Source: a virus. Taken from it: 55,982 bases of DNA. Each line of letters starts with the position of its first letter. Within the stretch, counting starts at the first letter, position 1. The notes beneath the pieces were generated by a model, which was given only the letters and a program-made list of their open reading frames with translations, was not told the origin of the DNA and searched no databases. Both the position numbers and the translations under genes were made by a program. Below are positions 18,498-30,698 of the stretch, in pieces. The DNA lies in the IMG/VR virus record IMGVR_UViG_3300034071_001545, positions 1-55,982 of that record. One strand, written 5' to 3'.

Positions 18498-18525
18498 ACA
18501 AAAAACCGCCGTATTATTGGCGGTT
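18498..18525 (-). terminator. Rho-independent terminator after nrdA
   Basis: Seven-bp stem AACCGCC/GGCGGTT (18504-18510 with 18519-18525). On the minus strand the hairpin runs into a T-rich tail. Confidence 0.88.
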
Positions 18526-21173: not shown

Positions 21174-21261
21174 AAAAATTTCCTCCGCTTGGTATTATTG
21201 TGTGGAAGATAAATACGTGTTATAAAAAATAAATTATGCAAAAAAATTTTACAAAATTTTC

Positions 21262-22720: not shown

Positions 22721-23788
22721 TTATTCAGTTTTTGCCATAACGTGCAAAGGATAGAATACTTCCTGCAACCATACATGATAGTTTGGTATAGTGGAGTGCA
22801 TACCGTGTGCTGTAAGTTTTTGTATAAAATGAAACTTGTTGTAGTCATATACATTCTCTACAGCATCAGATATTTTCATTTGCAACGAACCTGCAAAACT
22901 CGGGTTCTTTAGTTGCATAAGCATATAGTTTCTATTCAATATCTTGGAATGTTCCACGATGCTTGAATATATCTTCTTTTCGTTTATACAATCCTTGGCA
23001 CGAAGCAACAGTTCTTCAACCGAAGTTTCCTTGTTTTCTGTAAGCATAGGAAAGCATTTGATGGCAGTTTTGAGTCCAACTCCCTTGACGCCATCGATAT
23101 TATCAGAACTATCGCCTTCTAATATACGATAGTAAATAAAGTTGGTAGGATGAACGCCATATTCATTGATTACATCCTGCACGCCGTATATCTTCTTTTT
23201 GATAGGACTCCAGATACACACTCTATCGTTGATAAGTTGAATAAAGTCCTTATCACCACTCATTATGGTAATCTTGGATGTTGGATACATCTGTGTGGCA
23301 ATATAAGCAATAGCGTCGTCTGCTTCTATATAATCAATAGAAATCACACTCACAGGCAGGCTGCGAAGAAAATCAATAAGTTTTACCATTTGATTTATCA
23401 TCGCTTCCTGTTCTGTCTTAGGATCACTCATTTCTTCATATGCTCTATTTACACGAACAGATACTTTACGATTATTTTTGTATTCTGGATATATGTCTCG
23501 GCGGCGTTGACTTCCGCCTTTGCCGTCAAATACTACAATAACTCTTGTAGGACGTAATAGTTTTATAGCATATCCAAGACTGGTAAGAAATCCAGTTACT
23601 CCGCCAACGTGGTCGCCATTATCACTTAGTGTAGGAACAACAGTCCAACAACGAATGAAGTTATTGGTTCCATCCACAATAAGTATGTCGCTGTTCTTTT
23701 CCTTCTTGGTATTTACGGGCAAGTTGGCGTGCTCAGACTTTATCTGAGAAAATATAGAAGCAAATTTCTTTTTAGTATCTTCTTGCAT
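22721..23788 (-). CDS. 5'-3' exonuclease / RNase H-like flap nuclease (T4 rnh-like)
   Basis: 355 residues. PIN/FEN-type nuclease: ILIVDGTNNFIR (about 28), VVFDGKGGSQRRRDIYP (about 85), YIEADDAIAYIA (about 155), MSGDKDFIQLI (about 178), and a helix-hairpin-helix DNA-binding element GDSSDNIDGVKGVGLKTA (about 225). These are the metal-binding acidic clusters of the family. It should remove RNA primers from lagging-strand fragments. The start is 11 bases after a conserved-loop hairpin. The last residues stop shortly before the helicase promoter. Confidence 0.92.
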   Translation of the reverse strand: MQEDTKKKFASIFSQIKSEHANLPVNTKKEKNSDILIVDGTNNFIRCWTVVPTLSDNGDHVGGVTGFLTSLGYAIKLLRPTRVIVVFDGKGGSQRRRDIYPEYKNNRKVSVRVNRAYEEMSDPKTEQEAMINQMVKLIDFLRSLPVSVISIDYIEADDAIAYIATQMYPTSKITIMSGDKDFIQLINDRVCIWSPIKKKIYGVQDVINEYGVHPTNFIYYRILEGDSSDNIDGVKGVGLKTAIKCFPMLTENKETSVEELLLRAKDCINEKKIYSSIVEHSKILNRNYMLMQLKNPSFAGSLQMKISDAVENVYDYNKFHFIQKLTAHGMHSTIPNYHVWLQEVFYPLHVMAKTE

Positions 23789-23798
23789 TTGTTTGAAC

Positions 23799-23824
23799 CA
23801 TATGGAGGTATTTCACTCCATATG
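23799..23824 (-). other. Hairpin with conserved octaloop before the exonuclease start
   Basis: Nine-bp stem (23799-23807 with 23816-23824) with loop TGAAATAC on the minus strand. Loop and closing GGAG/CTCC are identical to the hairpin at 24251-24276 while the outer stem pairs differ by compensating changes. No T-run follows on the minus strand, so it looks like an RNA-protein site or translational operator rather than a terminator. Confidence 0.6.
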
Positions 23825-23831
23825 ATTATTT

Positions 23832-24224
23832 TTATATGTCTTCTTCTCTTGGACCCCAGAGCCCATCCAACAGTTCTTGTTCGGCCATTCGGATGCAACT
23901 GGGCAGATCATACGTCGGACCTCCACGGTCTTGTTCACGCCAAATCCATTCGCCGTGTTCTCGGATTTCGTCTGCATACATTTCAAATACACCATCTTCG
24001 CCCTTTTCTGCCAGAAGCTTTTCAAAGTCTTCGTAGGACATTTCAGTCAAAGGAGTCAACTTTACTTTTGGAGCTTTTGCAACCTTTGTCTTTTTAGCTT
24101 TTGGCTTTTTTTCTGTTTTGGCCTTTTTTGCCTTCTTCGGCTTTTCTTCTTTTATTTCTTCGGTCATTTTAATGACTTTTGCTTTTTCTATCTGGTTGTT
24201 TATATCGTGTACATCTTCGCTCAT
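23832..24224 (-). CDS. Small Lys-rich basic/acidic protein
   Basis: 130 residues from the ATG at 24224, chosen because AAAGGA lies six bases before it and a longer frame to 24326 would run through the recA terminator. A histone-like Lys/Ala/Pro segment (EEKPKKAKKAKTEKKPKAKK, about residues 25-55) precedes an acidic globular part (TEMSYEDFEKLLAEKGEDG to the end) with two Trp-rich turns (HGEWIWREQDRGGPTYDLP). Not recognised. It lies between recA and the exonuclease and could be a recombination or replication accessory protein binding nucleic acid through its basic arm. Confidence 0.72.
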   Translation of the reverse strand: MSEDVHDINNQIEKAKVIKMTEEIKEEKPKKAKKAKTEKKPKAKKTKVAKAPKVKLTPLTEMSYEDFEKLLAEKGEDGVFEMYADEIREHGEWIWREQDRGGPTYDLPSCIRMAEQELLDGLWGPREEDI

Positions 24225-24244
24225 ATATTTCCTTTCGTAGTAAT

Positions 24245-24276
24245 AAAAACCGTGTGGAGGTATTTCACTCCACACG
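24245..24276 (-). terminator. Rho-independent terminator after recA/uvsX, with octaloop
   Basis: Nine-bp stem CGTGTGGAG/CTCCACACG (24251-24259 with 24268-24276). On the minus strand it runs into GGTTTTTATT. It shares its eight-base loop with the hairpin at 23799-23824. Confidence 0.85.
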
Positions 24277-24282
24277 ATCATT

Positions 24283-25503
24283 TTAGTCGTCTGCTCCTTC
24301 TGATGCTTCGTCGTATTCAACGTCATCAGCCATTTCAGAGTTAGGAGCCTTATACTTCATAACAAAGTTCTCAACGAGCTTGTTATAAAGATAATCTCTG
24401 CATTCTGGTCTGTCTTTGAGCAGCTTCGGTAAGTCCTTCTTTTCAAATACAACTGTCTCGGGTTCTTTACCTTCAACAGGCATAATGAATTGTAGGTTCT
24501 TTGCCTTCTTATCTTCTTCCTTTTCTTCTTCCAACTGCTTCTTTGTCTTCTTTTCACCTGCAACCTTTGGCTTCTTGGCATTGGTTACAATATCCCATTC
24601 AATGAGATGTTCCAACCAATTGCTGAAGTTGTCGATACCTCGGTCAAAGTAGATGTCAAATTCAGCACTGCGCATAGGTGGTCCCATACGATTTTTGACA
24701 ACAGTGCACTTGGTACGAATACCAACCGTCTGTTTATCAGCGTTCTTGATTTGATTCAACTGCTTTAGACGTAGGCGAAGCGAAGCGTGGAACGCAATAG
24801 CTTTACCACCGCTGGTTGTCCAAGGATCGCCAAGTCCAACAAATCCTACCTTTTGACGAAGTTGATTGGTAAAGCACAAGCATACACGCTGTTTAGCAAT
24901 AAGTCCTGTGATCTTTCTCATCGCCTTGCTGATGGCAATGGCTTTGCCGGTGGCATAACCATCCGCACCGTGATCGCTTGCCAGTTCCTTCTTTGTAGAA
25001 GCAGCGGCAACAGAGTCAACCAGAATGGTCACAAGACGATTCTTGCTGCTCTTGCGAACAAGAGTGATGATTTCTTCAACCTTATCAAAAACATCTTCTA
25101 CTGTATCAACATTGATGTATAGCATCTTTGGAACGTCTACACCAATGGCTGTTAGAAAATCCGTAGATACGGAAGTTTCTGTATCGATGAATACTGCCAG
25201 TCCACCCTTCTTCTGGGTCTCGGCAAGCAGGTGAGCGCCCATAAGGCTCTTACCAGATGCTTCAAGACCAGTTAGTTCAGTAATTCTACCTACAGGCAAT
25301 CCACCATTTGGTCGATTGGCAATAGTCAAGTCAACGAGACTATTTCCGGTAGAAACCCAGTCAGTAATTTGCGAAGGATCATCTTCTGCATCAAGGAAAA
25401 AAGCAACTTTGCCGTCGCTGTTCTTATTGATGGAGTCAGCCAATGCTTCTGCCAGTTCATCGCGAGACGATTCAATCTCGTGTTCAATAGTTTTCTTTTT
25501 CAT
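24283..25503 (-). CDS. RecA/UvsX-type recombinase
   Basis: 406 residues. Strand-exchange ATPase: GGLPVGRITELTGLEASGKS (Walker A at about 79-86), VTILVDSVAAAS (Walker B, about 155), CFTNQLRQKVG (L2-side sensor) and TSGGKAIAFHASLRLRL. The motif set is closer to bacterial RecA than to T4 UvsX. A Lys/Glu-rich linker (about 305-330) and a strongly acidic C-terminus (YDEASEGADD) suggest regulation of filament formation by the tail, as in RecA. Downstream of SSB, separated from it by a long hairpin. Confidence 0.93.
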   Translation of the reverse strand: MKKKTIEHEIESSRDELAEALADSINKNSDGKVAFFLDAEDDPSQITDWVSTGNSLVDLTIANRPNGGLPVGRITELTGLEASGKSLMGAHLLAETQKKGGLAVFIDTETSVSTDFLTAIGVDVPKMLYINVDTVEDVFDKVEEIITLVRKSSKNRLVTILVDSVAAASTKKELASDHGADGYATGKAIAISKAMRKITGLIAKQRVCLCFTNQLRQKVGFVGLGDPWTTSGGKAIAFHASLRLRLKQLNQIKNADKQTVGIRTKCTVVKNRMGPPMRSAEFDIYFDRGIDNFSNWLEHLIEWDIVTNAKKPKVAGEKKTKKQLEEEKEEDKKAKNLQFIMPVEGKEPETVVFEKKDLPKLLKDRPECRDYLYNKLVENFVMKYKAPNSEMADDVEYDEASEGADD

Positions 25504-25524
25504 ATATGATAGTATGTTTGAGTA

Positions 25525-25556
25525 ATGGTGCGCCAGTACTCCATCTGGCGCACCAT
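25525..25556 (-). other. Perfect 12-bp hairpin between SSB and recA genes
   Basis: ATGGTGCGCCAG (25525-25536) pairs with CTGGCGCACCAT (25545-25556) around an eight-base loop. No T-run follows on the minus strand. It may be a pause, RNA-processing or mRNA-stability element that sets the SSB to RecA ratio. Confidence 0.65.
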
Positions 25557-25589
25557 CTTCTCATCATTTATTCTACTACTATGTTCAAC

Positions 25590-29288: not shown

Positions 29289-29331
29289 TATAAATATTCG
29301 TATATATGAGATATACGCTTATTATAAATAT
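29289..29331 (-). promoter_or_regulatory. Two ATATTTATA elements before the 466-residue tagged gene
   Basis: Copies at 29297-29289 (four bases before the ATG) and at 29331-29323. In the nearer copy the hexamer TATTTA is exactly six bases from the start codon. Confidence 0.52.
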
Positions 29332-30698
29332 TATATAGAGATCTGTTTCATATCACCATAATTCTTGCCTGCATATACTTTTACCGGAAACTTATCGCGT
29401 TCCATTATGCTCTTTATTCTTTTTATAACAGGCATCTTGTCGCTTTTATGAGCATCAAACAAGATACTATCGTATGTATATAGCACAGGCTTGGTTTGTT
29501 TATCATTTAGATAGTTCATTAGTTCGCCAAGCACATCTACTGCCATTTCTGTCTCAAATGCCTGTAGTATATAGTTGAATAGTTTATTGGGAGTGGGGTC
29601 TTGAATATGACAATGTTTGATTTTTCTGCCATACTTTGGCGTTTCTATATATCCATTTTCCTCAAAGAACTTCCAACGATGGTCAATATATTCTTGGACC
29701 TTCTTTAGATATGGAATATGTATCCATTTCTTATCAATGCCGCCATATATCTGTGTAAATGTGAATCCTTTAGCGACGGCAATATCTTCGTCGGTTATAT
29801 TGGACTTGTTGAAATAATACTTGGATAGATATGCATATGGATTTTCAGCAGCGTCCATTTGGAAGTTGGATAGATGAGCAATAAGACGAGGATGAAACGC
29901 ATTATAGTCCATCATCACAAGCATACCATCGTCGCCATATCTGCTTACAAAGCAGTTTCTGCTGCCATCATTTTTGTTTAGAGCAGCATAGTTTACGCCG
30001 CCAAATCTATTAGAAGGTCTGCCAGTTGATGTAAGCAGGTTGTATTGAGAGAATACAAGATTGTTCTTGATATGGCGATTTTGTTCCTCGCCGAAAATAT
30101 CAGTAAAATCTTCATTCACGCACAACCCATTTGACTCTAACTTGGCAAACAAGTCAGTCATAACATTGTTGGTGAATACAAATCCCTTCTCGCGAATATT
30201 AGACAAGTATATGTTCTTTATCATCTGAACATTATTGGTGAATACTTTGGCGTGCTTATATACCGGCACGCACTTGTTCAGATCAAACATATTCTTAAAA
30301 TGAAAATCAATGAAACTATGCGAGTTGGTCGTTTCAACTTCAGATGGCAGTTGGCCATTCTCAAGAAATCTAAACACATCTATGTCTATGAAGTTATAAT
30401 CCTCGCCAAACAACTGAACAATGTTCTTCTTGTCTGAAACTATCTTGTTATGAAACTTGGCATTACGCAATACAACCTTGATGTTCTCAAGAATATTATC
30501 CAAGCAGATACACTCGTTGTGATCTATAGGCAAACACCAATAGTCGTCGCTGACATAAAAGTAGAAGAATAATAGTGATATGTTGTTGTTGGACACATGC
30601 TTTTGGTTATCCAAACAAACAGCACTGATATAAACGTGTTCAGAGTTTATGATTGAACACAGGTTGTTATAGTCTTCGGTTGTTTCTACAATATGCAC
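29331..30698 (-). CDS. Family A DNA polymerase, compact
   Basis: 455 residues from a GTG at 30698; no in-frame ATG lies upstream before a stop. Polymerase A motifs are clear: TSTGRPSNRFGGVNYAALNK before motif A, motif A MMDYNAFHPRLIAHLS (catalytic Asp), motif B AKGFTFTQIYGG (O-helix with Lys and Tyr) and motif C YTYDSILFDA (HDE changed to YDS, Asp kept). The N-terminal 180 residues are too short and divergent to be a full exonuclease domain. A gap-filling or repair role next to the family B replicase is likely. It sits at the border of the tail genes with its own TTGACA promoter. Confidence 0.88.
   Translation of the reverse strand: MHIVETTEDYNNLCSIINSEHVYISAVCLDNQKHVSNNNISLLFFYFYVSDDYWCLPIDHNECICLDNILENIKVVLRNAKFHNKIVSDKKNIVQLFGEDYNFIDIDVFRFLENGQLPSEVETTNSHSFIDFHFKNMFDLNKCVPVYKHAKVFTNNVQMIKNIYLSNIREKGFVFTNNVMTDLFAKLESNGLCVNEDFTDIFGEEQNRHIKNNLVFSQYNLLTSTGRPSNRFGGVNYAALNKNDGSRNCFVSRYGDDGMLVMMDYNAFHPRLIAHLSNFQMDAAENPYAYLSKYYFNKSNITDEDIAVAKGFTFTQIYGGIDKKWIHIPYLKKVQEYIDHRWKFFEENGYIETPKYGRKIKHCHIQDPTPNKLFNYILQAFETEMAVDVLGELMNYLNDKQTKPVLYTYDSILFDAHKSDKMPVIKRIKSIMERDKFPVKVYAGKNYGDMKQISI

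Follow-up and report, generated by a model that had tools for sequence, protein, structure and literature searches.

A candidate mRNA 3′-end hairpin with a GNRA-type octaloop downstream of uvsX and other phage genes

Two minus-strand hairpins with the common core GGAG-UGAAAUAC-CUCC are found in the replication gene block of a 55,982-base virus record (the whole stretch of DNA analyzed here, hereafter the window). Judged from its sequence, the hairpin is a selected RNA element, since its loop is conserved and its stem covaries in the sense RNA far beyond these two copies, and it looks like a previously unlisted type of phage mRNA-end hairpin. The reading that we favor, with a probability that we place close to one half, is that of an intercistronic mRNA 3′-end hairpin with a GNRA-type octaloop cap, U-G-N-R-A-Y-A-Y, which would end or protect transcripts; it is preferred to recognition of the loop by a protein, which we consider possible but less probable.

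The block runs in the order gp32-like SSB, UvsX, gene X, 5′–3′ exonuclease, DnaB-like helicase, and ribonucleotide reductase subunits. The UvsX/RecA-type recombinase (24283–25503, minus strand; PF00154, 1e-55; phrog_97 UvsX-like, 1.6e-63) is upstream of hairpin 1, gene X (23832–24224, minus; 130 aa with a Lys-rich N-terminus) lies between both hairpins, and the exonuclease (22721–23788, minus; PF02739, 3.8e-31; PF01367, 3.6e-11) is downstream of hairpin 2. No match to gene X was found in Pfam or PHROG; its N-terminal tail is Lys/Ala-rich and varies in length among relatives. A family A polymerase piece (29331–30698, minus), with a weak PF00476 match below the cut-off, is separate from the exonuclease gene and about 5.5 kb away from it. 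The dnaB–nrdB gap contains, at about 21208–21216 (minus), a GTATTTAT stretch that recurs in the dnaB 3′ flanks of many relatives and could be a promoter element. Only eight of the 47 long ORFs of the window have an upstream Shine–Dalgarno (SD)-like motif, and most ORF starts are preceded by AT-rich stretches, perhaps a hint that the host makes little use of SD sequences.

Hairpin 1 (24251–24276, minus) reads CGTGTGGAG-TGAAATAC-CTCCACACG and hairpin 2 (23799–23824, minus) reads CATATGGAG-TGAAATAC-CTCCATATG. The minus-strand sequence thus bears out the initial annotation, which had described an identical core and outer stems with compensating changes: the stems differ by two replacements of G-C by A-U, each compensated opposite. 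Counting G-U pairs, both stems extend to 12 bp (24248–24279 and 23796–23827). Hairpin 1 lies 3 nt past the uvsX stop, and hairpin 2 is 3′ of gene X and 7 nt ahead of the exonuclease ATG at 23788 (10 nt if a 9-bp stem is counted), close to the 11 bases originally given. A run of five T (24245–24249, minus), a possible leaky intrinsic terminator restricted to the window's subclade, follows hairpin 1, and hairpin 2 has none, again as first described. Both fold strongly, with minimum free energies of −18.5 and −14.8 kcal/mol and z of about −5, far below shuffles, and the 16-mer core, with up to three mismatches, has two matches in the whole window vs. 0.27 expected. Neither had a match in Rfam release 15 at E up to 5, nor did the hairpin loci of eight relatives at the gathering score. 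GTATTTCA, a possible kissing partner of the loop, has two sense-strand copies in the window (11562 and 10705). The initial annotation had made its proposal depend on further copies in the genome or in relatives; a covariance-model search of the window yielded no third hairpin, though relatives do carry it.

These relatives were collected through the UvsX protein and not through the hairpin, which gave 62 loci, 58 of them reaching the uvsX 3′ end. All 58 have the hairpin, with a stem mismatch in two (L252 and L260). The loop is UGAAAUAC in 53 of them, UGGAAUAC in three, and UGAAACAU and UGAAAUAU in one each, and the inner stems vary (GGAG/CUCC, GAGG/CCUC, GAAG/CUUC, CAGAG/CUCUG). Two hairpin sets were used, A1 (45 of the 64 distinct hairpins plus the hairpin of L293) and A2 (27 of the 32 distinct uvsX flanks, near-duplicates being left out). 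Eight of 12 pairs change on both sides, which was matched in none of 500 shuffles, and 99.4% of stem cells are paired in the 27 uvsX flanks. Two stem pairs are often G-U and would be mismatches in the other strand; together with the sense-only orientation of the loop, these pairs favor RNA over a signal at the DNA level.

From the uvsX stop to the hairpin the distance is 1–14 nt throughout, whereas the next ATG is 3–30 nt off and the following gene varies, which assigns the hairpin to the uvsX side of the transcript. Genes between the uvsX hairpin and exo were read by eye from ORF sequences. Relatives have nothing in this interval (one-hairpin relatives such as L027 lack gene X), or a second hairpin together with either gene X or a gene of 225 or 216 aa; other inserts, namely X-like and 118-aa genes or a 354-aa gene, come without one. 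The idea of an operator of the exonuclease is weakened by the constant association of the hairpin with uvsX, irrespective of the gene downstream, and the protein site acting on the exonuclease that had been envisaged at first does not fit the at least six related phages in which genes are inserted and no hairpin precedes exo.

The loop is held more tightly at uvsX than at neighboring hairpins: 36 uvsX hairpins have three loops (33 UGAAAUAC, two, and one), vs. 18 loops in 32 gp32-3′ hairpins from the same pool. Seven nrdA-3′ hairpins of this pool have six loops, two of the seven flanks being from distant phages. L293 (UGAAAUAU; removed by the filter) and L252 (stem mismatch) were left out of the comparison. 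A strong hairpin is present in all 32 distinct gp32 3′ flanks; in the window it lies between the gp32-like SSB gene and uvsX (25524–25557, minus; 13 bp, octaloop AUGGAGUA), and its position is kept while its loop is variable. The window's nrdA 3′ end has a terminator-like hairpin (18504–18525, minus), AACCGCC-AAUAAUAC-GGCGGTT followed by a T-run; in relatives CCGCC/GGCGG is retained and the loop becomes GAUAAUAC, AAUAACAU, or GAUAACUC. These nrdA variants are rather like the gp43 operator loop.

Well beyond uvsX, the exact 16-mer core was found in 115 IMG/VR contigs, and two control loops, set on an identical stem and matched in base composition, gave five and four matches. The 115 loci hold 130 occurrences, 113 of which are post-stop, with UGAAAUAC on the mRNA-sense strand (by post-stop we mean that an open frame of 100 codons or more ends no further than 30 nt upstream). 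A stop on the other strand is near five of the 130, all five also being sense, and 17 have a stop on neither strand. Control-loop matches were post-stop in sense in none of nine cases and in antisense in one. The core is inside ORFs at some loci (L014, L028, L039, L045, L077, L083, L088, and L103), and several such matches were read by eye as tail genes in which it codes for GGISL. Once 16 loci had been set aside (coding, truncated, or without post-stop placement), 116 upstream proteins fell into 16 unrelated clusters and 86 downstream proteins into 19. Two cultured phages are among the carriers: in Rhizobium phage RHph_TM30 the hairpin, at 141982–142009, is flanked by a TROVE-domain gene and a tRNA-Leu gene, and in Sinorhizobium phage Phosso it is at 308521–308548, ahead of the RecA gene, with the loop UGAAACAC, downstream of a gene that by eye looks like a gp32-type SSB. 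When 20 large records were searched with the covariance model, 15 had a strong match (E below 1e-5), three had weak matches only, and two had none. There was one strong match per genome in 14 of these 15 (G004 has two), which points to a dedicated site and led us to reject a dispersed repeat.

The 18-mer GGGAG-UGAAAUAC-CUCCC is present in 49 of the 115 IMG/VR loci and in eight stretches of the bacterial and archaeal contigs searched (257 Gb), figures that are given as counts and not as a density ratio because IMG/VR contigs are redundant. One of the eight cellular matches is post-stop with a T-run (Marinifilum). This hairpin form is clearly viral rather than cellular. On the longer stem GGGGGAG-N8-CTCCCCC, TGAAATAC is one cap among many: it appeared once among the matches listed (at least 120 stretches), as did TGAAATAT, other loops being commoner. 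A second recurrent cap, GGGGGAG-GGTAAAAC-CTCCCCC, has at least six copies among the matches listed (L149, L161, L175, L185, L191, and L229). No description of this hairpin element was found in the open-licence PMC literature, and no title on phage hairpins appeared among the matches listed for open-licence PMC papers with the string UGAAAUAC.

Two other gene ends show how the cap may change. The first is that of Hsp20 in marine T4-like phages (80 of 168 relatives, 56 distinct flanks), where the stop is always followed by a GC-rich hairpin, mostly on GGGGGAG/CUCCCCC, with 33 loops over the 56 flanks. Its caps include UGAAAUAC, UGAAAUAU, UGAAACAU, UGCAAUAU, UGGAAUAU, UGAGAUAU, and UGUAACAA; among the others are the 7-nt UGUAAUA and plain GCAA, GUAA, and UUCG. 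GNRA is present at 40 of the 56 apexes, vs. 13.8 expected from shuffled apexes, and UUCG at two. The second is that of a capsid-like gene in another phage group (80 of 597 relatives, 39 distinct flanks), whose product matches the virion structural protein family phrog_1623 (1.2e-10) and, among cultured phages, is closest to Nonlabens phages (25%). In 22 of the 39 flanks, counted by eye from the sequences, UGAAAUAY or UGCAAUAY is carried on differing stems; the remaining loops are GUAAAA (six), CCUAAAAA(A) (nine), AUAAAA (one), and UUCAUC (one). Most of these hairpins are followed by runs of four to seven T, and some are capped by the same loop as at uvsX. The uvsX, Hsp20, and capsid-like sets differ in depth and divergence and their loop counts are only roughly comparable; the within-genome comparison of loops is firmer.

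The UGNRAYAY pattern, its replacement by plain GNRA and UUCG caps at an equivalent position, and its occurrence on T-tailed terminators suggest a GNRA-type cap. The loop would fold as a GNRA-like cap with a U-A closing pair and extruded pyrimidines, which could let the hairpin form fast and stay closed; Vienna folding, which predicts a plain 8-nt loop, counts against this. Such a hairpin would block 3′ exonucleases, so that upstream messages (uvsX, hsp20, capsid) survive after processing or termination, and with a U-run downstream it would double as an intrinsic terminator. Copy 1 of the window, with its T5 tail, is a plausible leaky terminator or stabilizer after uvsX, and copy 2 may be the same end element carried by gene X. 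Termination does not appear to be its general role, since a T-rich tail follows the hairpin in only three of the 36 distinct uvsX flanks, those of the window's subclade, and in five of the 56 Hsp20 flanks.

The post-stop placement in sense, the presence at all complete uvsX 3′ ends, the covariation, and the 16 upstream clusters argue for an end element, as do the Hsp20 hairpin kept with varying caps, the T-tailed capsid-like hairpins, and the single copy per genome. The closest known analogue is the class of CUUCGG hairpins of T4 and other phages, a precedent which the excerpt of PMC8948821 (citing Tuerk et al., 1988) describes as predominantly intergenic and tied to mRNA stability and to stops of reverse transcriptase. 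As far as that excerpt goes, the likeness lies in a special loop on variable stems, mostly intergenic and in many phages. Here, by contrast, the loop is UGAAAUAC, an octaloop of the type UGNRAYAY in place of a UUCG loop closed by C-G, and it has one copy per genome, a strict post-stop sense position, and a near-fixed sequence at uvsX. The last property is the strongest fact against an end element, as the other hairpins of the same genomes vary: if the loop were purely a cap, other GNRA loops should be accepted, as they are at Hsp20, and a structural cap does not fully account for the added constraint on the uvsX loop. Moreover, stable caps should profit cells too, and the 18-mer is not enriched there.

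This constraint is what recognition of the loop would account for. A phage or host RNA-binding protein would read UGAAAUAC and control translation or decay of the neighboring message, in the manner of gp43, a reading that we hold to be possible although unlikely. The RNA–protein recognition site proposed by the initial annotation retains several arguments: the loop is fixed while the stem covaries, neighboring hairpins of the same genomes have looser loops, the orientation is sense only, and the single copy per genome is as for a dedicated operator. The closest analogue in that case is the gp43 operator, for which the available portion of PMC3014915 gives -UAAC- and -UAAA- loops in T4, RB69, and RB49. 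The T4/RB69 operator is likewise a small conserved-loop hairpin in the replication gene region, and its loop is loosely like the N-A-A-Y center here; according to the same portion it is upstream of its own gene's start, whereas our hairpin follows uvsX, and no fixed position before the start of one gene was found. Since the polymerase piece of the window matches family A only, gp43 itself would not be the reader. The strongest facts against loop recognition are the exchange of caps, free at Hsp20 and partial at the capsid-like gene, and the lack of a common neighbor gene, with 19 clusters downstream; in addition, the hairpin does not keep to exo where genes have been inserted. The variable next gene, the exchangeable Hsp20 caps, and the T-tailed capsid-like hairpins fit an end-of-message role at least equally well. 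A bolder proposal, to which we give somewhat lower credence, is that the post-stop hairpin with UGAAAUAC is an RNA signal specific to viruses, which cells lack as a class and unrelated tailed phages share, and that its loop is read by a common factor that fixes the fate of the upstream message; host RNA-binding proteins or nucleases and phage proteins are candidates for this factor.

It is improbable that the hairpin is a plain rho-independent terminator whose loop was conserved by chance or slow drift. Like phage intrinsic terminators, it is a post-stop GC-rich hairpin with U-runs at some copies, namely T5 at copy 1 and T4–T7 at most hairpins of the capsid-like group, and at more distantly related uvsX genes, those of Microcystis phage Mel-JY01 (44% identity) and of an uncultured phage (49%), different hairpins precede a T4 or T7 run. 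Unlike them, copy 2 and most uvsX and Hsp20 copies have no U-run, and the loop at uvsX is constrained beyond that of neighboring hairpins, while control loops on the same stem were never post-stop in sense. Chance or slow drift is rejected by these control loops, by the within-genome comparison, and by the covariation. Less probable still is a translational coupler, in which the hairpin would shield the next start until a ribosome finishing at the upstream stop melts the stem. The 1–14 nt between stop and hairpin, the many gaps of 7–15 nt to the ATG, mostly without an SD, and the scarcity of SD-like motifs in the window (8 of 47 ORFs) are in its favor. However, the ATG is 16–30 nt away in other relatives, some with an SD, the next ribosome-binding site is clear of the hairpin in the Hsp20 and capsid groups, and coupling needs no fixed loop.

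Very improbable is a cassette boundary, where the hairpin would provide short homology for gain or loss of genes such as X, as has been proposed for the PeSLs of phages of the T4 type (Arbiol, 2010; Comeau, 2014; both as cited in the excerpt of PMC4503421). In its favor, X is flanked by two copies, a single hairpin goes with the absence of X in L027 and others, and L250 and L251 have another gene with a second hairpin. Against it, the inserts of L265–L276, L266–L267, L285, and L252 have no second hairpin, and exchange would be a by-product and not the reason for the loop. PeSLs, in which a stem-loop is combined with an early promoter, are similar in having stem-loops at the boundaries of exchanged genes. 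A T-loop (UGNRA) is not favored either, as Hsp20 variants, read by eye, swap the U-A closing pair for A-U, C-G, or G-C.

A mimic of the ribosomal protein L1 site was also rejected. The L1-site strands of 23S rRNA are joined through a further helix. In Escherichia coli 23S, this site carries GGTGGGAG ... TTGAAATACCACC and shares GGAG and UGAAAUACC with the hairpin, a real likeness (although a first pattern search for it in five genomes found nothing), but the fold does not match: the covarying stem runs up to the loop with no second helix, so that GGAG and UGAAAUACC do not face each other between two helices, and the capsid-group loops (UGAAAUAU on UGU/ACA stems) lack the GGAG/UGAAAUACC match.

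The stable-loop hairpins known from phage messages are mainly of the UUCG type. To these the present hairpin adds a recurrent octaloop in a sense-specific post-stop position, in at least 16 upstream gene contexts, which covaries strongly in its stem and lacks a match among Rfam models. If a factor reads the loop, it would offer a compact handle on how phages control message ends and lifetimes; if the loop is a structural cap, UGNRAYAY would be a loop class with a directly solvable three-dimensional fold. For annotators, the hairpin is a searchable marker of the 3′ ends of phage genes.
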